Source of the DNA: a virus
Virus record (IMG/VR): IMGVR_UViG_3300046028_005287
Coordinates: 1-42,653 of that record
Reading direction: 5' to 3' (one strand)
Length of the DNA stretch: 42,653 nt
Below are positions 24 to 42,250 of the stretch, piece after piece; positions within the stretch are counted from its first letter, which is position 1; every line of letters starts with the position of its first letter. The position numbers and the translations under genes were made by a program. Below the pieces are notes generated by a model, which made no database searches, was not told the DNA's origin, and worked only from the letters and a program-made list of their open reading frames with translations.

Positions 24-1511
24 TTAATTATGTTCCTGCCAGTTTACAATGCCCACAGCATCATCATTAGTTGTAGTGGCTAACGCTGCCAAACACCATA
101 TGTCTGATACACCTGCTATAGTTCTACCCAACTGTTGGCTAAAGTCTATTTCATTGCTAGTAACCTGAGCAGACCCGCCCTTATTAGACCCCACAAATAC
201 ACCTTGTGTTATTACTTTGCCGTCAGATAATGCTGTAGCAGATATGTCATACTCTACTGTGCTGTCTGTGTCAGCACTGGTCCAACTGGCGCCAGTCAGT
301 GTGGGATTGAGAATAATGCGATATGCAAAAGCTGCTTGTTGTAGTCCATACACATCGAATGCTGTAGGCACTACGATAGAGTCTAAGCATGTTGACTTCA
401 TACGCAAACATACTAATGGTCTATAAACTGTATTGCTTAGGTTTTTGCCTGTTAGTTCTGTTCCTATAGCACGGGTAAAACTGCGATTACTATAACCGCC
501 TTCTGACATAACTGTAGAACAGATTGCTCGCATTGTAGCTGCGGGTCCGGTGCTGATTAGTTCATATCGCAAGGGTAATGTAGCACTGGTCATATAGACC
601 TTGTTTAATATGTTGGCATGGTGAAAACTGTGACAAAGGATGAACTGTCCGTTAACAACAAATCCACATCGCACTGTCCCTACACCTAACCATTCTATAT
701 CTGTCCAGAAGATTTGTGCTTTGGTTACATCTAATGTTATTCCACTGGCTCCTGTACCATCTAATCTATCACCATTCCACGAAGCCTGGGCAAATTTTTC
801 TGTAGTGTCATCTACTGAACCAGAAGTGTATTTTCTAATAACAAGATTTTTTGTAGTGCCCGCTACTTCAAAGTAAATGCCGTTCTCTGCTCCAAAATAG
901 CCTGCTCGTTGTGTAACGCCTGCGGTAGGAGTGTTCATTACAAAGGTCAACAGAACCAATAGACTCTTACCAGGCTGGTAGGAAAATACTTGTTTAGTCT
1001 GACGAATGGCTGACCCCGCTCCTGTAGCGTCCATCAGAATAGAACTTTCGTTAGGTAAGAAAGAGGAAGTGGCAGCGCCTGTGTCCGCTTGGTCCCACTT
1101 GTATGTGTTGTCAAAGTAACGCAGTCCGCCATCAAACAAAGTATAAGGATTGCTTACACGCAGTCTACCAAACGCATCAGTAGCCGCTGCTCCTAAAGTT
1201 ACTGTGCTAGTGCCAGTTAGGGTAGCATTTACATTACCACCTATAGGCATATAAGATACATCCAGTATGCCGCTTGTGCCAACTTCTGTAATGTGCGTGT
1301 GGACTGGATTTCCTGCACTACTGGTAACATTAACAGTATCAATGAAATTGACGTTTCCTGTAATAGTGATATTTTCAGAACCAAGTGTAACAGGCAAAGG
1401 ATTAGATAATGAGACAATATCACCATTCGCATTATTAGCAAGCATCACCACCTCATATCTTTTTGATATGGTGGGGTCTAAAGAACCAGTCTCTTTTCTA
1501 AATTGTGCCAT
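24..1511 (-). CDS. Fibre-like or capsid-surface structural protein
   Basis: This 495-residue protein has no enzyme motif. Residues 40-125 are rich in short Thr/Val/Asn/Gly strands (for example NITITGNVNF), as in beta-structured phage fibre or decoration proteins. A segment near residues 112-130 (DAFGRLRVSNPYTLFDGG) resembles one I recall from other marine phage structural proteins. The rest is Gly/Thr/Ser rich with few Lys, typical of virion surface proteins. There is no signal peptide, membrane segment or capsid-targeting sequence. Its ATG overlaps the TAA of the upstream gene (TAATG), so it is probably translationally coupled to the late-promoter operon starting near 4722. Structural role is inferred from composition and context; receptor-binding fibre, whisker or head decoration cannot be separated. 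Confidence 0.55.
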   Translation of the reverse strand: MAQFRKETGSLDPTISKRYEVVMLANNANGDIVSLSNPLPVTLGSENITITGNVNFIDTVNVTSSAGNPVHTHITEVGTSGILDVSYMPIGGNVNATLTGTSTVTLGAAATDAFGRLRVSNPYTLFDGGLRYFDNTYKWDQADTGAATSSFLPNESSILMDATGAGSAIRQTKQVFSYQPGKSLLVLLTFVMNTPTAGVTQRAGYFGAENGIYFEVAGTTKNLVIRKYTSGSVDDTTEKFAQASWNGDRLDGTGASGITLDVTKAQIFWTDIEWLGVGTVRCGFVVNGQFILCHSFHHANILNKVYMTSATLPLRYELISTGPAATMRAICSTVMSEGGYSNRSFTRAIGTELTGKNLSNTVYRPLVCLRMKSTCLDSIVVPTAFDVYGLQQAAFAYRIILNPTLTGASWTSADTDSTVEYDISATALSDGKVITQGVFVGSNKGGSAQVTSNEIDFSQQLGRTIAGVSDIWCLAALATTTNDDAVGIVNWQEHN

Positions 1512-2581
1512 TAATTACAATTCCATTTACGCAATGCTTTATTGATACGTGAATCAGGGTCTCTTGCAGTCTTAGCTGAAGTCAATCTTTTCTTCATTCC
1601 GCCCATTCTCGCACAAAATGATTTACGGCGATTTGCTGCCTTTGAGCCAGCTTTCAATTTACTGGGCTCTGTTGTAACAGCAGTAGATAATTTTGAACCT
1701 GGATTTTCACGACGATATGAGTCAACACCTTTTTGATTCAAACCACCAGATTCTGATTTACCTTCTTTACGCTGCCATGCTGCAACTTCATCAACTTGTT
1801 CAACTTCCTCATTTGCTTTTTTTTCGATGGATTTACCAGCATATTTAACTAAAGCCTTATGTCCTCTTTTAGCATCTTTCAGTTTCTTGCCCAACTTAGG
1901 GTCAGCACGAAGCATCCAACCTGGTCGATGATTACCTTTTCCAGTATGAGATTCATCAACTTCCTCATTCATTTTATAACCACGGCTTTTCAAATCAGCA
2001 ACAACATCGTCATGTGATTTACTGTGCTGTTCTTTCTTTTTTGTTTTTGTGTGTTCAACTTCATAGTTATAACCACCCTCGCCACCTTTGTGCCAAATAT
2101 ATGCTTTGCCGTGTTCTGCATGTCTTAGAATACCAACAAGTTTCACTTCATCAATAGATTCAACTTCTTCTTTTTTCATTGAATTTTTTTTTATTTTATT
2201 TAGAGCACTGTTGACACCAGCGGTTCTTTTCTTAGTCCAAGCACCCTCATCTCCAACTTTTTTAACATAAGACGATAAAGTTCGTGTTGACAATTCTTCA
2301 ATAGATTCAACTTCTTCTTTTACATGCCCATATTTCTTTTTATACCAATCAGGCATACCATTCTTTTGTCTGAAATAGCGAACTGTTGCGGAATCGTTTG
2401 CTTGGTCACGATATTTGTTTTCTGCTGCTGTGTTATGACTTTTCATTGCCTCTGCTGCTTTATGTGCATCTTTAGCAATATAAGTTAATTCAGCATCAGT
2501 TTTCTTATGATAATCATGTCCTTCTAATGGATGCCTCTGTGAAGGACGACCCTCTGCGATATGTTGTTTTAATGACTTCAT
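1511..2581 (-). CDS. Modular capsid-targeted protein with EEVE linkers
   Basis: The 356-residue protein starts MKSLKQHIAEG, matching a T4-type capsid-targeting peptide with an IAE|G prohead-protease site. Four acidic linkers, at about 89-96 (EEVESIEE), 138-145 (EEVESIDE), 206-210 (EEVDE) and 258-265 (EEVEQVDE), split it into five very basic modules. Two linkers end in I-x-E, the T4 gp21 cleavage pattern. The last module (about 266-356) contains RRKSFCARMGGMKKRLTSAK and ends RKWNCN; it resembles the phage-specific DUF6321 group. I see no catalytic motif. Its start overlaps the stop of the 703-residue gene by four bases (ATGA). Likely role, by inference: an internal head protein cut into small basic DNA-associated peptides. 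The family name is from memory and moderately secure. Confidence 0.6.
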   Translation of the reverse strand: MKSLKQHIAEGRPSQRHPLEGHDYHKKTDAELTYIAKDAHKAAEAMKSHNTAAENKYRDQANDSATVRYFRQKNGMPDWYKKKYGHVKEEVESIEELSTRTLSSYVKKVGDEGAWTKKRTAGVNSALNKIKKNSMKKEEVESIDEVKLVGILRHAEHGKAYIWHKGGEGGYNYEVEHTKTKKKEQHSKSHDDVVADLKSRGYKMNEEVDESHTGKGNHRPGWMLRADPKLGKKLKDAKRGHKALVKYAGKSIEKKANEEVEQVDEVAAWQRKEGKSESGGLNQKGVDSYRRENPGSKLSTAVTTEPSKLKAGSKAANRRKSFCARMGGMKKRLTSAKTARDPDSRINKALRKWNCN

Positions 2582-4689
2582 GAAATGTTTCCTTTTTTCG
2601 TTCTAAATGAGGTTAGACTAATTCCTTGTTTTTTCAATTCATCATCTTTCTGGTCACCAATACTTGCACCAGTTTCATCACCCGTTAATTCTGAAACAGC
2701 TTTGCCCGTGTTTCTATCTATTTTCTCTTTATTATAGCCTGACATAGGAATGCCGACTTCTGTTCCATAATCAATCTCACTTATCGTCTTTTTTGTTTTT
2801 AATTTGACGAAATATAATTTTCCTTTTTTCTCCACTTGTCCATTTTTTCGATGTGCTTCCTTTGCTGCATTATCACGAATTGCAAATTTTCTCTTGTTTC
2901 CATCTTTATCACACACATAATCAGTTGATTCTCTGACCATTGGTTTTCCTAGTGTTAGAACATTTAATGCACCATTGTCGGATAAGGTTGTTCCTGTTTG
3001 TTCTTTAACATCACTCTTTAACAGTTTCAATGTCTTAGTTACTTCTTCTGCGCTATCACCTGTTACTGTTATTGAAACAGCTTCATTGATGAAATTATCA
3101 AAATCAGTATTGACTTGCTCTTTTACTTTAACTGGCTTTTTCTTTCTTGGTAGTCCTGAACCTGAACCTGAAATGGCTATCTCAACTTTTGGTGTTTTAT
3201 ACTTACCAACTTCGACCAATTTATCATGAACAGAGTGGTGTGTTACTTTACCATTCTTACCATATCTACCAAAGCCTAAGTATGAAAGACCTAACTTCAT
3301 TGCTTCCTGATATGCACCAGATTCTGTTGATGAAGGAACTCTCTGTGTTCCTTTTTTATCTATAGGTAGAGTGTCTTTTTTATTTAATTCGTTTGCTATC
3401 CAAAATTTTGATACATCGTTCCCAGGAGCTTTTGATGTGAACTCTTTTACTCTTTTGAATATGTCCTGAAGTTCTTGTTTTTTCTGCTTAACGATTTCTG
3501 GGTCAGAACTTCTTAAATCCTCTGAGTTATCAAATTCAACATATTTGTCGCCAAACAGTTTTGCATATTCTGTTCGGCTCTTTTGAACACCATCCCATTT
3601 TTCTTTTCTTATGTTCTCAGGTACAGTTCTACCGCCACGTTGACCGCGCTCAATGTTTCTCTGCTGTGATACTTCATCACGGGTATTAACAAGAACCATT
3701 GATGTGTCATATCCTAATTCTTCTAGTTTCTTTTTGATGGTTGAAACCTTCTCGTAATCATCACCTGTTCCATTGATGATTAGTCCATTTCTACCAAGCA
3801 GAGCCAATCTCTGGCGCAATTCTGTAACACTTTTTGCACGACCACGAACAAAGTCTCTCTGTTCGCGCTCAGATTCTGGCATTGTCATATTCAGTCCTTC
3901 TTTATCCATCAAGAACTCAAATGCTTTATCTGAATTGATTTCTACTAACCCATGACCATCAAGTGTGTTACTTAACACATAGTCTTTTCCTGAACCTGGT
4001 CCACCTGCTAGAAATACAGCTTTAAAAATAGCTTTGTCATGAACGCCTTCGATTATCAGTTTCTCAAAAACTGTGTCCATATCTGGTTGAACAAATTCGT
4101 GTATATTCATAGATAGTCTGATTGTTCGCATTAAACTTTTAGCCTCGTTATCGGATAGAGTCTCTGGTATACCTTTTCTGAAAGTCTTAAAGTCATTTTT
4201 TACTGCTGCCTCGCGCATTTTTGTGCCAGACATTCCAGCAGCGCCATCAGCATCAGGGTCGCGTTCACCTGCTGAAATGACTTCTGCGCTCTCAAAATTA
4301 AACTCTTTACCATTATACTTATCAAACAATTTCTGATACTCTGCAATTCTATCAGAACCCGCTACCATAATTATTTTGCTGTATTTTTGCTTACTTAGGT
4401 GTTTAGCAACTTCAATGAACGTGCGAACATCTTCATTTGCCTGCTCAAAATTGGCATATGAAAACATTTTACGAAGATATTTGATTTTCTGCTGAACAGA
4501 AAGAGGATTTTTCTTTGAATCTTGGCTGCGCGAAGCATATATTACATGGTCAGCACCAAGTTTTTTTGCTGTATCGACTACCTTTTTGACCAATAAACCG
4601 TGGCCTATTGTCGGCGGATTGAATCGGCCAAACGCGAAAACGATTGTTTTATTTTTATTGGCTTCTGCCAAAAAGTCTGAAAAATGCAT
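2578..4689 (-). CDS. Capsid-targeted nucleotidyltransferase/P-loop kinase polyprotein
   Basis: A 703-residue multidomain protein. Residues 1-10 (MHFSDFLAEA) form a T4-type capsid-targeting sequence with an LAE|A cleavage site. Residues 15-200 are an HxGH-type nucleotidyltransferase with GRFNPPTIGH (21-30) and SGTKMRE (154-160, ISxTxxR type), closest in style to NMN adenylyltransferases and other cytidylyltransferase-like enzymes. Residues 220-415 are a P-loop kinase (GGPGSGKD at 229-236) of the polynucleotide kinase/zeta-toxin style. The C-terminal 170 residues hold a VTGDSAEEVTKTLKLL module seen in other phage proteins, and no enzyme motif. Two more candidate protease sites, IIE214|G and INE536|A, fall at domain borders. 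Two overlapping TATAAATA boxes lie 33-48 bases upstream, and a GAGG ribosome site precedes the ATG. Substrates are unknown. Confidence 0.75.
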   Translation of the reverse strand: MHFSDFLAEANKNKTIVFAFGRFNPPTIGHGLLVKKVVDTAKKLGADHVIYASRSQDSKKNPLSVQQKIKYLRKMFSYANFEQANEDVRTFIEVAKHLSKQKYSKIIMVAGSDRIAEYQKLFDKYNGKEFNFESAEVISAGERDPDADGAAGMSGTKMREAAVKNDFKTFRKGIPETLSDNEAKSLMRTIRLSMNIHEFVQPDMDTVFEKLIIEGVHDKAIFKAVFLAGGPGSGKDYVLSNTLDGHGLVEINSDKAFEFLMDKEGLNMTMPESEREQRDFVRGRAKSVTELRQRLALLGRNGLIINGTGDDYEKVSTIKKKLEELGYDTSMVLVNTRDEVSQQRNIERGQRGGRTVPENIRKEKWDGVQKSRTEYAKLFGDKYVEFDNSEDLRSSDPEIVKQKKQELQDIFKRVKEFTSKAPGNDVSKFWIANELNKKDTLPIDKKGTQRVPSSTESGAYQEAMKLGLSYLGFGRYGKNGKVTHHSVHDKLVEVGKYKTPKVEIAISGSGSGLPRKKKPVKVKEQVNTDFDNFINEAVSITVTGDSAEEVTKTLKLLKSDVKEQTGTTLSDNGALNVLTLGKPMVRESTDYVCDKDGNKRKFAIRDNAAKEAHRKNGQVEKKGKLYFVKLKTKKTISEIDYGTEVGIPMSGYNKEKIDRNTGKAVSELTGDETGASIGDQKDDELKKQGISLTSFRTKKGNIS

Positions 4690-10750: not shown

Positions 10751-11035
10751 TTATCCTCTGGTCAAATTTAATATTTTTTGAATTTGTGTTTCAAGTGCTG
10801 TTCTTCGATTGGGCCATTTAATTATAGGCTGGTCTGCTGTTTGAAGAAGTTTAGTCAAAAAAGGCAAAATTAATTTCTCAACTTGATGCAACCTTGCCTT
10901 ATACTCCTCAACAGTTTCTTCCTTCTCTGCAATAACATCAGTGTATTCTTCCTCATCTACAGCAGTAAAACCGAAGTCATGAGAATCATCATATTCTTCA
11001 AGTATTTTATTGATATCATATTTAATTTCTGGCAT
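10751..11035 (-). CDS. Small conserved T4-like phage protein
   Basis: A 94-residue protein with an acidic N-terminal half (EEYDDSHDFGFTAVDEEEY) and a helical C-terminal half ending KWPNRRTALETQIQKILNLT. I recall the WPNR-containing C-terminus from short conserved proteins of marine T4-like phages, without a known function. The 5' end overlaps the end of the GIY-YIG gene by 14 bases, suggesting the endonuclease gene landed directly in front of it. Confidence 0.65.
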   Translation of the reverse strand: MPEIKYDINKILEEYDDSHDFGFTAVDEEEYTDVIAEKEETVEEYKARLHQVEKLILPFLTKLLQTADQPIIKWPNRRTALETQIQKILNLTRG

Positions 11036-11666
11036 TATTTACCTTTTCTATTTTCTGTATATCTTTATAAGGAAAACTATTGTTATAATAATGTCCCTTC
11101 ACAGTATTTTTGTTATATCCATTTTTCTCACACCATAACACTAAATTTTCTGTAATAATAGTATCACCATTCATATGGATTTTCCATTTTAGTGTTCTTG
11201 GACTGTCTCTTTTTCCTTTCCAGGGACTGACTTGGACGCCTTTTTTCCCTTTGTTCCAAGGAATTTTTCCCTTTAGTGCAGCAGACAATTTATCCTGGTG
11301 TTCTTTAGTTCTAGCAGGTTTGGGCTTTCTCATTTTATGTTTTGTTTCGTCACTCAATTTCCATTTTTTTCCTGTTTGATTCGGAGGAATATTTCCACCT
11401 TCATGTAAATTATAATCACCGAATTCTTTTATATACTCTATCTCTTTTTGTAGTGTTTCACTCTCATTATCACTTTCAAACAAAATTTCATACTTAAATG
11501 AGTTTTTACCGTATTTCCTTATGGCTTTATAAAAAGGATTATCACTTTTTTCAAAAACTGAAGGACTAAAATGTTCACGAATTCTATGTTCAACATTGGT
11601 TCTTTTAGTATATCCGATATAACTTTTGTTGTTTACTTTATTGGTTATCTTGTAAATTATAGGCAT
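11022..11666 (-). CDS. GIY-YIG homing endonuclease with NUMOD3-like repeats
   Basis: A 214-residue free-standing homing-type endonuclease. The N-terminal catalytic domain reads IIYKITNKVNNKSYIGYT, with GIY replaced by IIY, YIG present at 16-18 and a downstream Arg in EHRIREHF. Residues 95-150 hold NUMOD3-like DNA-binding helices (SDETKHKMRKPKPARTKEHQ, LSAALKGKIPWNKGKKG). The C-terminus ENLVLWCEKNGYNKNTVKGH is like the helix-turn-helix tail of phage homing nucleases. It is preceded by AGGAG and by a T4 late box at 11686-11693, and it overlaps the next gene by 14 bases. Expected role: spreading its own gene between related phages. Confidence 0.85.
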   Translation of the reverse strand: MPIIYKITNKVNNKSYIGYTKRTNVEHRIREHFSPSVFEKSDNPFYKAIRKYGKNSFKYEILFESDNESETLQKEIEYIKEFGDYNLHEGGNIPPNQTGKKWKLSDETKHKMRKPKPARTKEHQDKLSAALKGKIPWNKGKKGVQVSPWKGKRDSPRTLKWKIHMNGDTIITENLVLWCEKNGYNKNTVKGHYYNNSFPYKDIQKIEKVNNARN

Positions 11667-11718: not shown

Positions 11719-12948
11719 TTACTTAGTCCATTGTTTTGCAACATTGAAATTGGCGTGGGCAAATTCAAGCCGGTCAACCAATTTTACCGCTCCACCAGTC
11801 AGTTTTGATACAGCAACAAAACCTTCTGGTGCAGTTATGCGATAACCATCATCAGTGCGAACGAATGTTTTTGTTACTTGATTCAGTTGACCTAGCTTAT
11901 TAACAATCATTAATTTGGCTTCGACAATCTTGTTCTGTAAATCAAGAATCAATTTTATCTGCTCGGCACTCTGGCGATAGAACCTCATGACTTCATTTTT
12001 TTCAATCAATCGCTTCTCTTTTGTGTCAGATTTTTTAGCAGATAGTATTTCTTTATTCATTCTATCTTCAACCCACTTAATAAGCTGTGTTGTATGTTGT
12101 GCTGTATTTTTTATTGCTTCACCAGCACGAACTTTTGTGTTATTGAATGTTTTTATCTGTATCTTATATACTTCACTTGATGCTATTCGATTAAGCGTGA
12201 GGGCATTAATCTGATTGAGCATTCTTCCTGCATCAGATAGAATGCCTGTAATCTGAATAGTTTCTTGTTTTGTAAATGATGCTGTGCCTGATGCATCAAT
12301 GAATGATGCGTCCCTGAACCAAACATCCTTTGTAGGTTTCAATCTACCTATATCAATATTGAAGGATGACTTCATATCTTCAATAGATTTACCTGTATAT
12401 GATGTGTGAAATACAATACCCATTTGTGCAACAGATATACTTTTAGCTAATTTAGAATCTTCAGGAACAGCATATACGATTGTATTAGGCTGAAATGTGA
12501 CATAACTCTCACCATCAATGACTTGCTTCTGTAAATCATCATTTGTGAACATCATATCGCCCTGCAGGATACCTTCAATACCCAACTTAGGTAAGTAGCG
12601 TAGGGCAATCTTCAGTTTATCATTCAAACCTTCTGAAGGATGATTATTGTCAATATCTTCATCGGTGTAATTCAGCTTTGCGTTTTTCGCAAAAACACTT
12701 TTTGTTCCAACAAAAAACTTACCATTCTCTGGATTGATGCCACATATAACAGCAGGCGCGCCATCCCATTTTGTTGTTGTGAATACTTTAGTGTCTGCAT
12801 GTCCTGCAAGCATATCACGCAATGAACGTAAGAAATTGATTGAATCTCTTGCGCCTCTAATGCCGAAATTAAGAACATCATCCTCGATATGCTCCAGGTG
12901 GACGTTCTTACCTTCTGTTGATTCTATTAAAAATTGTGAGAAGTTCAT
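11719..12948 (-). CDS. Capsid-targeted polynucleotide ligase-like protein
   Basis: A 409-residue protein. Residues 1-10 (MNFSQFLIES) nearly copy the capsid-targeting peptide of the 703-residue protein (MHFSDFLAEA) and end in an LIE|S protease site. Residues 60-63 (KWDG) form the KxDG nucleotidylation motif of ATP-dependent ligases. ILQGDMMF (127-134) fits motif III, and PEGFVAV (374-380) with VKLVDR (388-393) fits motifs IV and V. The catalytic set therefore looks complete, with an inserted helical region at about 225-350. It follows the 260-residue gene by two bases, downstream of a late promoter (13756-13763). RNA or DNA end joining is the likely chemistry, and delivery within the capsid is inferred. 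A capping-type or protein-modifying nucleotidyltransferase is the alternative. Confidence 0.7.
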   Translation of the reverse strand: MNFSQFLIESTEGKNVHLEHIEDDVLNFGIRGARDSINFLRSLRDMLAGHADTKVFTTTKWDGAPAVICGINPENGKFFVGTKSVFAKNAKLNYTDEDIDNNHPSEGLNDKLKIALRYLPKLGIEGILQGDMMFTNDDLQKQVIDGESYVTFQPNTIVYAVPEDSKLAKSISVAQMGIVFHTSYTGKSIEDMKSSFNIDIGRLKPTKDVWFRDASFIDASGTASFTKQETIQITGILSDAGRMLNQINALTLNRIASSEVYKIQIKTFNNTKVRAGEAIKNTAQHTTQLIKWVEDRMNKEILSAKKSDTKEKRLIEKNEVMRFYRQSAEQIKLILDLQNKIVEAKLMIVNKLGQLNQVTKTFVRTDDGYRITAPEGFVAVSKLTGGAVKLVDRLEFAHANFNVAKQWTK

Positions 12949-37126: not shown

Positions 37127-37549
37127 TCAATGAATCAATTTATTAGCTTTAGGTTGAGACTGAAAGAGTATTGATTCATCAAAGTCACTAATGTCCTCAT
37201 TATCCAATTCATCATCAAACATCTGATAATCATATTCATCATCAGATGGTGGTGCAGCATCTATCTGCTCATACAAATCAATAATAGTTTTATTATAGAA
37301 TTCAATAAGAGAATCTTTTAGTTCTACAATAAAAAGAACATCATCATTATATATACATGCTTGATTGTTCTTTAACAATTCGATTGGCAACCAAGGTATC
37401 ATCATCATTATATTTTTACCTTCAGGAGACCTTTTCATCAAAACTGTCATAGGCTCATGAACCATTATAGTTTCTTTATCATCATTTTGCTTATAGTTAG
37501 CAATAATATCTTCACCACTTTGCATTCTGATTAATACAACTTGATTCAT
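37127..37549 (-). CDS. Sm-like small phage protein with acidic tail
   Basis: A 140-residue protein. The first 95 residues (MNQVVLIRMQSGEDIIANYK..., EPMTVLM, MMMIPWLPIELLKNNQ, VLFIVE) form an Sm-like strand pattern like the protein at 19861-20154, with a short helix (FYNKTIIDLYEQ). The last 45 residues are very acidic. Such proteins recur in T4-like marine phages. It overlaps the C-terminal UvsW ORF by four bases and lies over the antisense promoter. Function unknown. Confidence 0.6.
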   Translation of the reverse strand: MNQVVLIRMQSGEDIIANYKQNDDKETIMVHEPMTVLMKRSPEGKNIMMMIPWLPIELLKNNQACIYNDDVLFIVELKDSLIEFYNKTIIDLYEQIDAAPPSDDEYDYQMFDDELDNEDISDFDESILFQSQPKANKLIH

Positions 37550-38460
37550 AGTTTTAATCCTATTTCGTAAAATTTGTATTCAAACTTTTCTTCTTCGTAT
37601 ATTTTAACACGTTCAATGAAATGTTTCAATGTAAAGTTGGTATATTTACCTATTCTCAAATCATCTGATATATCATATAATGTAGCTTCATCTTTATTAT
37701 CACCTATTCTAAGACCTCTACCAATTGATTGAAGATTTCTGATTCTCGATTTTGATGGTGAAGCAAAAACAACATTATGGAGATTCTTGATATTAATACC
37801 TGTTGAAAATGTTCCATATGATGCAATGATAATAGCATCTTTTTCCTTTTCTGTTATCTCACGAATAGATTCGCGTATTTCAACATCTGTGCCACCAAAA
37901 ACAAAAAAGACTTTTCTTTTACCCTTTTCATCATTGATTAAATCAAATAGAACTCTACCATGTTTCTCAACAAACTGGAATAATATAAGTGAATTGCCGT
38001 TTAGTGATAATGCTAAATTTTTAATGAATCTATTTCTATGTGGATTAGAAACAATATAATCAATTTCTGTTTTATATTCCCAACTTTCTTTTCTTGCTAG
38101 TTTACAAATTTCTTCTGGATATTTTAATATGAGACATTTGATTTTGAATGCAGCCAGATATTTGTTATCCATCAATTCTTTTGTTGTTGTTGCCTTATAC
38201 ACATGTCCAAAAAGACCTTCTAAAACTAATTTGTGAGTGTTTGTTCCATCTAGTGTACCTGTGCAACCAATCCGATATGCAGCATTAACAAGTCCTGTCA
38301 TGATTGTTGTTAATGATTTAGCTTTAAATAAATGGGCTTCATCTCCTAAAACGAAATCAAACTGCTCAAAATATTCAGGTGAGTTTTTGTAAATTGATTG
38401 CCAGGTGGATATGATAAAAGGTGATGGTATTTGTATATTTTCTATTTTTTTAATTTTCAT
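37546..38460 (-). CDS. uvsW: UvsW helicase, C-terminal half as a separate ORF
   Basis: A 304-residue ORF holding the second part of UvsW: ISTWQSIYKN, VLGDEAHLF (DEAH box, 40-43), TGTLDG (motif III-like), IIASYGTFSTGINIKNLHNVV and QSIGRGLRIG (motif VI). The Walker A half is the separate upstream ORF. Residues 1-12 (MKIKKIENIQIP) are not UvsW-like and probably belong to an insertion. It has no ribosome site but begins two bases after the stop of the first half, in another frame, so reinitiation would be needed. UvsW remodels recombination and origin intermediates. Confidence 0.85.
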   Translation of the reverse strand: MKIKKIENIQIPSPFIISTWQSIYKNSPEYFEQFDFVLGDEAHLFKAKSLTTIMTGLVNAAYRIGCTGTLDGTNTHKLVLEGLFGHVYKATTTKELMDNKYLAAFKIKCLILKYPEEICKLARKESWEYKTEIDYIVSNPHRNRFIKNLALSLNGNSLILFQFVEKHGRVLFDLINDEKGKRKVFFVFGGTDVEIRESIREITEKEKDAIIIASYGTFSTGINIKNLHNVVFASPSKSRIRNLQSIGRGLRIGDNKDEATLYDISDDLRIGKYTNFTLKHFIERVKIYEEEKFEYKFYEIGLKL

Positions 38461-38462
38461 AT

Positions 38463-39206
38463 TTATAATAATTCATCTTCAATTGATAAATTTTTAGCCA
38501 ATATTGTACCTCTTTTTGTTTTTAATTGTTGATTAGGCTTAAAATAACAAACTTCATTATTCTCTAAGGTTACTTTTATTCTATCCACCTTTGGATTTTT
38601 ATCTTTTCCTGCCATTATTATTGATATTTCATCATCAACATTGAAATCTTTATCATTTTTTGAGTAATCCCCGAAGTCATTAAACATTTGATAACAAAGA
38701 GATGTAGTTGGAACTACAAGTATACCTTTTTTTGTTGTTGTCTGTAGGTATCTGACAACAAGATATAAAAATAGAGATTTACCTGATGCTGTTGGTGATA
38801 ATAGCATCAATCTTTTGTTTCTGATTGATTGAAGAAACGATTTTAATTGATAATCACGGACTTCTAATTCTTTAGGTAAATTTAGTGTTGATATAAAATC
38901 AACTGCTTCTTTTACTGAAAATTCTTGTGTTACGGTTATATCTGAGTCTATTTCTAAAGTGTAATTACGTTCTTCGCAGAATTTTTGTATGTAAGGAACA
39001 AGACCGTGATATATCGTGAATGTTCTTAGGTCAGCAAGTCTTATTTTACCATCCCACAGTTTTTTCTTAAACGCTGGTGTGAATTGAAATCCAGGAACAT
39101 AAAATTCAAAGTAGATTGATAATTCTTGTGCAATATGTTTCTCACACTCAAATTTTATATACGCTTCATTTAACTTATGAAGTTTTAAATCAATTTCCAC
39201 CGACAA
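38463..39206 (-). CDS. uvsW: UvsW helicase, N-terminal half with intein-like tail
   Basis: A 247-residue ORF. Residues 1-200 match the first part of UvsW: FVPGF-like YVPGFQFTPAFKKKLWDGKI, VRDYQLKSFLQ and Walker A SPTASGKS (137-144), then VVPTTSLCYQMFNDF. The last 40 residues are foreign: VTLENNEVCYF, LKTKRGTILAKNLSIEDELL, resembling the block-B part of a Hint/intein domain. The stop TAA is followed by the second half in a different frame. Active-site intein residues (Cys1, TxxH) and the endonuclease are missing, so self-splicing is not expected. It overlaps uvsY by 17 bases. Confidence 0.85.
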   Translation of the reverse strand: MSVEIDLKLHKLNEAYIKFECEKHIAQELSIYFEFYVPGFQFTPAFKKKLWDGKIRLADLRTFTIYHGLVPYIQKFCEERNYTLEIDSDITVTQEFSVKEAVDFISTLNLPKELEVRDYQLKSFLQSIRNKRLMLLSPTASGKSLFLYLVVRYLQTTTKKGILVVPTTSLCYQMFNDFGDYSKNDKDFNVDDEISIIMAGKDKNPKVDRIKVTLENNEVCYFKPNQQLKTKRGTILAKNLSIEDELL

Positions 39207-40227: not shown

Positions 40228-40235
40228 TATTTATA
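40228..40235 (-). promoter_or_regulatory. Late promoter box abutting the tube-like gene
   Basis: TATAAATA, minus strand, ending six bases before the ATG at 40222; its TAA is also the stop of the HNH gene. A late start here would be almost leaderless, so it may act poorly or be coincidental. Confidence 0.45.
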
Positions 40236-40788
40236 GTGCCTTTTTACAAGACCATCCTTTAACCAAAGATTTATGCATATTTCCTTGGTCTAAATTGTTT
40301 TCTCTACAGAATTTAGATAAATTGGTTATTTCAAAAATTTTTCCTTCAGAATTTGTTATTACATATTTTTTTTGTCTAATTTCTGCGACCCTTTGTTTCT
40401 GGTAATCTGTATTTTTCTTTCCTTTTAATGATTCTGAAATATTCTTTTTATGTTTATCTGATAAAAGTTTACCTTTTTTAGATTGACTTATTTTCCTTTT
40501 GGAATCTTCTGAATATCTAAACGTTTTTCTGAAATTACTAATCTTGTCACCAAAACCTTCTGGTTTCTTTTTTCCTTTTTGTGCCATAGCTAAACCTTTT
40601 AATATTTCATCTTTTCCTATGCACCCAGATAAACCTTTCCATGCATAATAATCTTCTATTTTACCATATTGTTCATATAAAATGCGATGTGCATCTGCAT
40701 GTTCTTCTATTGTCAATTCAATTAGATTGGTTGATTCATTTGTTCCTCCAGCATGTTTTGGTATAATGTGATGTTTATGTTTTATCAT
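40231..40788 (-). CDS. HNH/NUMOD3 homing endonuclease
   Basis: A 185-residue protein. The N-terminus HKHHIIPKHAGGTNESTNLIEL and EEHADAH (about 3-33) is an HNH nuclease core. Residues 90-130 (YSEDSKRKISQSKKGKLLSD, NISESLKGKK) are NUMOD3 DNA-binding repeats. FEITNLSKFCRENNLDQGN near the end is a NUMOD1-like helix-turn-helix. It is a free-standing homing gene inserted between gp23 and the tube-like gene, with a late box (40824-40831). Its stop codon lies inside the next gene's late box. Confidence 0.88.
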   Translation of the reverse strand: MIKHKHHIIPKHAGGTNESTNLIELTIEEHADAHRILYEQYGKIEDYYAWKGLSGCIGKDEILKGLAMAQKGKKKPEGFGDKISNFRKTFRYSEDSKRKISQSKKGKLLSDKHKKNISESLKGKKNTDYQKQRVAEIRQKKYVITNSEGKIFEITNLSKFCRENNLDQGNMHKSLVKGWSCKKAL

Positions 40789-40915: not shown

Positions 40916-42250
40916 TCACATTATATTTGAGACTTTAAATGCGCGATAGTAAACGTTACTCATTGCATTAATTGCACCAAGACCTTGTGTTGCGCCATCC
41001 GAAAATGGATTAGCAACTAGACCATAACGTGTCTTGAAGCCAATTTTTGGTTGGAAGGTATTAGTATCAACAGCACGAACCATTTGTAGAGGAACGTATG
41101 GGCAGTAGAAAATACCTGCGTCATATGCATTGCTTCCTTTGTAACCAACAACAGCAAATTCTGATGTTGATGATGTTGGGAAGTATGGGTCAATGTAAAC
41201 TTTGATACGACCAAACATTGTTCCTGCAAATGTGTTACCTGTATCGTCAACTGTTAGGTTAACTTGACCTTGTAGTGCTGATTGATAGTCAAGTAGACCA
41301 GCCATTGCTAGAGCAGAAGCAACATCTGATGAACAAATCATCATGTTACCTTTACCACGACGAGTTAATTTAGCAATTACGTTAGCTTCACGTTCGATTT
41401 GGAATGCAAGACCCTTAACTTTTTCAACCATCCAACGACCGTTTGAATCTGTATCAAGGTCAAAAGTACCTTTGGTTGTTGTACCAACTTGGCAACCAAC
41501 TTTAGCTGTTGCGTAAACGGTACGTAGAACTTCACGATTAATTTCAGCAAGAATTTCTGCTGAAAGAATATTTGAAAGTTCTGTTTCTGCGTCAAGACCG
41601 TGAACTGCTTTAAGGTCTTGTGCAAGTTCCATTGAGTATTCTGCTTTCAATGCACGTGACTTAGCAGTTACAGATACTTTCTCAATTGAGAAGCCCATTT
41701 CAAGAGGCGTTAGACCTTCAGCGGTACCTGTTGCCATTGCAACACCATTCACAACGCTTGAAGAAAATACGTTCTGATTACCCAATGCTGTGTTAGCAGC
41801 AAGAGAGATATCAGTCTGTGAACCTGTACCTGAGTAACCAGTATTAGCTTCATTGTAGAATGATTCTACGCCAGAAGCAGCAACGTTACGCTCTGTGCCA
41901 TACATTGAACGCATTGCGAAAATCAAACCAGTTGGACCAGTCATTGGCTGAACACCGCAAATATCATAAGCGATTAGATTAGGCAATGAACGGCGAACTA
42001 AACTGATAAGAATTGGGTCGAAACCAGCAACAGGACCTTGTGCTGCTGAACCACCGCTGAAACCACCTGTACCTGCTGAGTTAGTTGGTGATGCTTCCTG
42101 AAGGATGCCACCAGCTTTAATCATTTCTTGAGCTTGATTCTCAAGAATAACAGCAGTTACCGCTCTGCGATATGGGTCTTTAATTGCAGGTAATGCTTCG
42201 TGGTCAAGAACTGAATTCCACTTAGTTTGTAGTTGTTCTGATAGATACAT
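40916..42250 (-). CDS. 23: Major capsid protein gp23
   Basis: A 444-residue precursor (T4 gp23 is 521). A scaffold-associated N-terminus (1-52) ends GGILQE|ASP, an LxE-A prohead-protease site, so the mature protein begins at A53 and is about 392 residues. Capsid core features: DPILISLVRRSLPNLIAYDICGVQPM, GPTGLIFAMRSMYG, and a C-terminus KIGFKTRYGLVANPF. The shared I/L-x-E site gives the protease rule used here for the capsid-targeted enzymes. AAGGAGATATAA precedes the ATG; a strong terminator follows. Confidence 0.96.
   Translation of the reverse strand: MYLSEQLQTKWNSVLDHEALPAIKDPYRRAVTAVILENQAQEMIKAGGILQEASPTNSAGTGGFSGGSAAQGPVAGFDPILISLVRRSLPNLIAYDICGVQPMTGPTGLIFAMRSMYGTERNVAASGVESFYNEANTGYSGTGSQTDISLAANTALGNQNVFSSSVVNGVAMATGTAEGLTPLEMGFSIEKVSVTAKSRALKAEYSMELAQDLKAVHGLDAETELSNILSAEILAEINREVLRTVYATAKVGCQVGTTTKGTFDLDTDSNGRWMVEKVKGLAFQIEREANVIAKLTRRGKGNMMICSSDVASALAMAGLLDYQSALQGQVNLTVDDTGNTFAGTMFGRIKVYIDPYFPTSSTSEFAVVGYKGSNAYDAGIFYCPYVPLQMVRAVDTNTFQPKIGFKTRYGLVANPFSDGATQGLGAINAMSNVYYRAFKVSNIM

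Follow-up and report, generated by a model that had tools for sequence, protein, structure and literature searches.

A T4-like freshwater phage encodes a predicted capsid-targeted polyprotein with conserved putative head-protease sites at its domain borders

The virus record IMGVR_UViG_3300046028_005287, a 42.6-kb sequence (42,653 nucleotides) analysed here at its full length and called the window, belongs to a T4-like freshwater phage whose closest named relatives are Kyanoviridae, and it carries genes for a sliding clamp, a clamp loader, a deoxynucleoside monophosphate kinase and a gp23-type capsid protein. On its minus strand lies an intact open reading frame (ORF) of 703 aa that joins a nucleotidyltransferase (NTase) to a P-loop kinase and, as argued below, is probably a polyprotein packaged into the phage head. 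A 96% identical copy with an identical layout is carried by a second contig (L001), and about 100 non-redundant NTase-kinase relatives were gathered. The features of the ORF are as follows, with a slash marking a predicted scissile bond.

2578..4689, minus strand: whole ORF, 703 aa, ATG start; predicted capsid-targeted polyprotein of NTase, kinase, mini-domain and C-terminal region
4663..4689, minus strand: residues 1-9, MHFSDFLAE, N-terminus like a capsid-targeting sequence (CTS), predicted cut after E9; T4 CTS form (PMC9026906), helix at 3-10 in the model
4096..4653, minus strand: residues 13-198, HIGH-superfamily NTase, NadD/PPAT/NMNAT-like; PF01467 match, PHROG match to cytidyltransferase, PPAT fold match
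4096..4104, minus strand: IHE198, candidate additional cut where the NTase ends
4048..4095, minus strand: residues 199-214, low-confidence linker ending in IIE214/G
3370..4047, minus strand: residues 215-440, P-loop kinase, like polynucleotide kinase (PNK), zeta and UMP-CMP kinase; PF06414 and PF13671 matches, fold match to PNK 4gp7; a standalone gene in contigs L014, L015 and others
3205..3318, minus strand: residues 458-495, small module containing GLSYLGFGRYGKNGKVTHHSVHDKLVEV, a mini-fold in the model
3082..3105, minus strand: residues 529-536, DFDNFINE, predicted cut INE536/A in an internal motif resembling a targeting peptide
2581..3081, minus strand: residues 537-703, C-terminal region made of modules reshuffled among relatives, with AVSITVTGD... 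first and a mini-domain near 590-632

By Pfam, the NTase (CTP_transf_like) is found at residues 19-128 and the kinase (Zeta_toxin/AAA_33) at 223-374, the Zeta_toxin match scoring 47.3 bits (E 2e-12) against a gathering score of 22.3. In an AlphaFold2 model built from 34 sequences, both enzymes are predicted with confidence and the two mini-domains are recognizable, while the predicted local distance difference test (pLDDT) is below 50 at residues 199-212, 501-526, 528-544, 553-588 and 634-676. Structural matches cover about 13-196 or 13-198 for the NTase (PPAT and NadD are listed, the best row stopping at 197; PPAT, Z 14.7, 2.9 A, 153 aligned) and 220-420 or 216-424 for the kinase (polynucleotide kinase, phosphoseryl-tRNA kinase and zeta are listed, with rows beginning at 216-221; PNK 4gp7, Z 15.4, 3.3 A, 166 aligned). 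E214 thus lies in the domain border, and the kinase begins one residue past the predicted scissile bond. E9, E214 and E536 are all outside the confident folds of the model, and E117, E176, E250, E324 and E493 are in folded stretches. A module similar to that at 458-495 sits after the N-terminal targeting peptide of the NTase protein of phage S-H38 (L017).

In T4, the prohead protease gp21 recognizes L/I-x-E and cuts behind the glutamate, and the 10 N-terminal residues of the internal protein IPIII are enough for packaging (PMC9026906); with its roughly 10 residues and its terminal (L/I)xE, MHFSDFLAE/A has this form. A first-pass annotation, made from the letters of the window, had proposed a packaged polyprotein with sites at LAE9/A, IIE214/G (212-214) and INE536/A (534-536), all of which lie where it placed them, and had warned that such triplets arise by chance. 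The warning was correct: the 703-aa protein has 10 [LI]xE triplets, the background frequency is 1.4% per position and a random 13-residue stretch contains one in 15% of cases, so that neither the count nor even the presence of a triplet in a linker of a single protein is beyond chance, and triplet counting was rejected as evidence. Unlike the count, the conservation of the predicted border sites does exceed chance. We scored the share retaining [LI]xE at each triplet among 36 non-redundant relatives, which, like the 122 kinases considered below, were chosen by an EGVHD/EG motif, making the glutamate before the cut (P1) and the residue after it (P1') partly circular and leaving P3 and P2 free. 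The annotation's own check was whether border sites are kept while nearby triplets drift, and this is what was found for E9 and E214 and largely for E536: [LI]xE is retained in 0.91 (35 scored), 1.00 and 0.65 of the relatives, respectively, the glutamate itself being present at 536 in 28 of 31, versus 0.08 at E117, 0.03 at E176, 0.47 at E324, 0.40 at E493 and 0.10 at E638. LVE250 is well kept too (0.81), but it lies inside the kinase and its P2 is nearly fixed (Thr in 28/36), and its conservation is therefore probably structural. At the end of the NTase, IHE198 keeps [LI]xE in 0.69 of the relatives and the glutamate in 35/36, and may mark a fourth cut, by which the linker would be trimmed; in a third clade, LHE or LNE at this position (KGMGLHES) is the only border site.

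Among 122 kinases with a Glu-Gly border, P3 is L or I in 120, and on their tree P2 changed about 66 times and P3 23 times, with no change at P1 and P1'; P2 of E214 is among the most variable positions, next to a P3 that is nearly always L or I. In a second set, chosen by hidden Markov model to avoid selection on the Glu-Gly motif, the stretch of 13 residues ahead of the kinase core was scored, with 25 representatives left unscored where the kinase match was partial or the P-loop pattern not found. Here [LI]xE is present in 69/77 NTase-kinase fusions, in all 77 kinase-only proteins and in both kinase-first proteins, compared to 15% of random windows. The kinase is a separate gene in Pelagibacter phage HTVC008M, where the protein starts with MIPFILKEG followed by LYDPGIFKAFFLAGGPGSGK, and in Methylophilales phage Melnitz, where it starts with MKTFAELQEG followed by VYDPNIFKAIFLAGGPGSGK, the predicted cut falling between E and G in both; about 60 more contig representatives have standalone kinases with starts such as MKQFKQIIQEG. 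As judged from sequence, these N-termini are T4-style capsid-targeting peptides, and they end in [LI]xEG exactly where the fusions carry the border IIEG-type site. The internal site of the window protein therefore corresponds to the predicted processing site at a kinase N-terminus, and the standalone genes, of which the annotation had no knowledge, are the strongest support for the polyprotein prediction. The targeting peptide and the border site are also correlated within the NTase-kinase fusions, 64 having both, 2 only the peptide, 4 only the border site and 6 neither (Fisher p 2e-5), although the support from this is weak because the sequences lacking a CTS are confined to few clades and four of them are counterexamples. 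Fusions of one clade (L089, L096, L098, L104 and L107) begin at the NTase, with MSKATFTFGR..., and have MSE or no triplet at the border.

Site 536 is, by its sequence contexts, the same kind of junction as the border at 214. The module that follows it (AVSITVTGD..., or AVTVTxGD) was found in 14 contexts among relatives, every one with E directly before it and 12/14 with [LI]xE, typically at the end of VNEEFENFLSE-like peptides. The suggestion that DFDNFINEA resembles a second targeting peptide thus held up well, VNEEFENFLSE, VNEQFEEFLNE and the like occupying the same junction in relatives. Other, unrelated modules behave similarly, starting right behind an E that has L, I, V, M or F two residues ahead of it: E precedes the DLRxWF module in 31/31 cases, with L, I, F, V or M always at P3 and varied upstream contexts, the YxLSDS module in 6/6, the SIIDIPR module in 46/47, counting N-terminal and internal copies, and the GRPSQRHPLE module in 10/10. 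The SIDKGIEPG module was set aside as an [LI]xE example, for E precedes it in 26/26 but only 6/26 fit, P3 being mostly V or Q. A motif-blind test on the starts of BLAST homology agrees with this: of the pairs in which both proteins open the shared stretch with a hydrophobic residue, 24-28% have E in both proteins two positions on, versus 4-6% in alignment interiors, and at the next position E showed little or no excess. In a scan of all residues at these starts, E was the most enriched (about 3.3-3.5x at offset 0 and 2.6-3.2x at offset 2), and it remained so after kinase pairs were excluded. The GRPSQRHPLE module also begins the protein adjoining the polyprotein in the window:

2552..2581, minus strand: MKSLKQHIAE/G, targeting-peptide-like start of the adjoining DUF6321 protein (1511-2581); module GRPSQRHPLEGH occurs in 10 contexts, always directly after (L/I/M)xE

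This DUF6321 protein (1511-2581, minus strand) itself resembles a second polyprotein, with internal linkers EEVESIEE/L and EEVESIDE/V and a first module that is shuffled among relatives. In contig L205, a 1181-aa ORF (1111-4656) strings together a kinase, a PAP2-like phosphatase, a pol-beta-like NTase and a cytidylyltransferase, with IQE, IRE, LQE and LKE at the borders.

Two further sites in the window bear on the protease and on packaging:

42095..42103, minus strand: LQE52/A, predicted maturation site of the gp23-type major capsid protein; same-position sites in relatives
12922..12948, minus strand: MNFSQFLIE/S, targeting-peptide-like start of a 409-aa candidate packaged protein (11719-12948), relatives of which adjoin the NTase gene in HTVC008M and Melnitz-1

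The capsid-protein site is LSE52/A in S-H38 and in the L009 phage, and LGE52/I in HTVC008M. LQE52/A suggests what the protease of the window phage would recognize. The long relatives G009 and W01-W04, when searched, proved to carry the gp21 gene (PF03420). Relatives of the NTase have been detected by mass spectrometry in virions of S-SCSM1 (PMC9602691) and S-CREM2 (PMC10665884), and the latter paper names S-SZBM1 as another case. The S-SCSM1 NTase starts with MKSFLQFLKE/A and its neighbouring ORFs 89, 90, 92 and 93 are also annotated as virion proteins, and that of S-SZBM1 begins with MRFRQFIIE/A; no such targeting peptide is present in the NTases of RaK2 and PAC2, which are jumbo phages.

Taken together, the conservation of the border sites and the standalone kinases with a targeting peptide aligned to the border support the polyprotein reading of the first-pass annotation, and we consider it likely that the protein is targeted to the capsid and cut by a gp21-type prohead protease into an NTase, a kinase with its mini-domain and C-terminal parts. 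Its packaging, cleavage, injection and enzyme activities are our inference. Residues 1-9 would act as a T4-style CTS and deliver the chain to the prohead core, and during head maturation the protease would cut after E9, E214 (perhaps E198 too) and E536. The products would be the targeting peptide, an enzyme of the adenylyl/cytidylyltransferase fold (about 10-198 or 214), the kinase with the small module (215-536) and the C-terminal part (537-703). These pieces would remain in the capsid and be injected with the DNA, probably to act on host nucleotide or NAD metabolism, which we regard as the most likely use of an NTase and a kinase at the start of infection. The internal sites may derive from N-terminal targeting peptides of packaged proteins that were formerly separate, or may mimic such peptides, and would have been retained after gene fusion because they are cut.

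Several observations weigh against this interpretation. In the collection searched, no phage record has a single place covering 80% of the 703-aa protein, and the virion data consequently come from relatives with other architectures; the gp21 gene, moreover, is not within the window. For the virion NTases cited above, the authors note that co-purified abundant proteins are not fully excluded (PMC9602691, PMC10665884). An N-terminal [LI]xE is unspecific alone, being matched by 8/50 ORFs of the window, several of which are probably unrelated to packaging, and it was dropped as a stand-alone predictor there. At module starts, Glu-rich linkers are a confounder that inflates E, and the boundary test showed no difference when split by targeting peptide (30%, 26% and 29% vs 5-7%), although the split had no clean negative group because the loci are rich in virion genes. 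Finally, the four fusions without a recognizable targeting peptide that retain the border site, and the two with a peptide that have no [LI]xE in the scored stretch, imply that the border Glu-Gly could partly serve the kinase fold.

Carried to its end, this last point yields an alternative in which Leu/Ile-x-Glu-Gly caps the kinase structurally, similar E-starts doing so for other modules, and is kept for folding rather than for cutting. The near fixation of the Gly, Asp and Phe-Lys-Ala that follow the site, and the same four fusions, would fit such a cap. However, residue 214 adjoins a low-confidence stretch, the third clade has its LxE in a different sequence with the spacing shifted by one residue, unrelated modules share the hydrophobic-x-Glu start, and the clades lacking both the CTS and the border site nevertheless have the kinase, all of which make us think a purely structural role improbable. 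Only a little less doubtful is an uncut bifunctional enzyme of the NadR kind, which would phosphorylate and then adenylylate with its two domains in series, the border triplet being the remnant of an old gene start. The domain order is identical, NadR chains are the top Foldseek hits, and NadR is carried by phages for NAD synthesis (PMC9503650). The NCBIfam nadR model does match residues 14-80, but at 21.5 bits versus a cut-off of 341 (TIGR01526) the protein falls far outside the family, and the listed kinase folds point elsewhere. A remnant should decay, yet P3 and P1 persist while P2 and the remaining linker turn over, and the two domains also occur apart, in reversed order or with other partners, as in L205. 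We give the least credence to a third alternative, that the repeated peptides are docking motifs for the prohead core that raise packaging, with cutting absent or incomplete. The linkers do reproduce the pattern seen in the N-terminal targeting peptide, F-x-x-[FL]-[LI]-x-E, and in the T4 CTS the targeting residues are distinct from the processing residues (PMC9026906). Nonetheless, conservation at the border is highest at the processing residues P3 and P1, with F at the targeting position in only 31/62 fusions.

The capsid-targeted polyprotein has counterparts in several known systems. Like the T4 CTS proteins (IPI-III and Alt, processed by gp21), it has a short N-terminal peptide ending in (L/I)xE and predicted to be removed after packaging (PMC9026906), but only terminal peptides are taken off the T4 internal proteins, whereas in the 703-aa protein the folded enzymes of one chain are also divided by conserved sites. 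Several internal (L/I)xE sites per substrate are known from the T4 scaffold and core proteins gp22, gp67 and gp68 (PMC9026906), whose cuts break the scaffold so that it exits the head; here, the predicted cuts are between folded domains. The polyvalent proteins of phages and conjugative elements (Iyer et al. 2017, PMC5512222) also have several enzyme domains per chain and are predicted to be packaged and injected, and their hallmark of at least two unrelated enzymatic domains is seen here in the NTase and kinase and, fourfold, in L205. Embedded peptidase domains are credited with their release, in contrast to the 703-aa protein, where none was found and the sites fit a head protease acting in trans; domains of the polyvalent set (ART, MPTase, ParB-like and so on) were not detected by Pfam in this protein or in five relatives. 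In the giant phages phiKZ and SPN3US, a gp21 relative processes head proteins after a short Glu-ending motif (PMC10052503), as is predicted here, but the cuts reported for SPN3US take off N-terminal propeptides and the C-terminus of the protease itself and do not part domain from domain (PMC10052503). NadR, an NMN adenylyltransferase joined to a ribosylnicotinamide kinase, shares the succession of NTase and P-loop kinase, whereas the single phage domains match PPAT/NadD and polynucleotide kinase/zeta and occur separately and shuffled.

Capsid-targeting peptides, gp21 cleavage, scaffolds cut many times and multidomain injected proteins are thus already known. Predicted from these sequences, and not described in the papers compared, are a head protease that would separate the folded enzymes of one packaged chain, and targeting peptides that would serve as exchangeable joints; we found no prior description of cyanophage CTSs or of prohead-protease polyproteins in the open literature, subscription papers not being covered. 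In the literature compared, phage proteases remove propeptides or clear scaffolds, and a head protease that frees several folded proteins would be the counterpart, in a bacterial virus, of polyprotein processing and suggest a route by which T4-type heads deliver several proteins from one gene. It would also provide a sequence rule to predict packaged, injected proteins and their mature ends, and would explain the constant fusion and splitting of NTase, kinase, phosphatase and small-module genes in marine and freshwater T4-like phages. Whether this is a general manner of head loading in this T4-like branch, with modules reshuffled, released by the prohead protease and joined by removable hydrophobic-x-Glu peptides, seems to us evenly balanced. 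If so, the cleavage peptide would be address label, processing site and recombination joint together.

Two other observations were made by eye elsewhere in the window. Two adjoining ORFs at 37546-39206 (minus strand) resemble a single helicase, split or interrupted, and an HNH-like ORF at 40231-40788 and a GIY-YIG-like ORF at 11022-11666 suggest mobile endonucleases.

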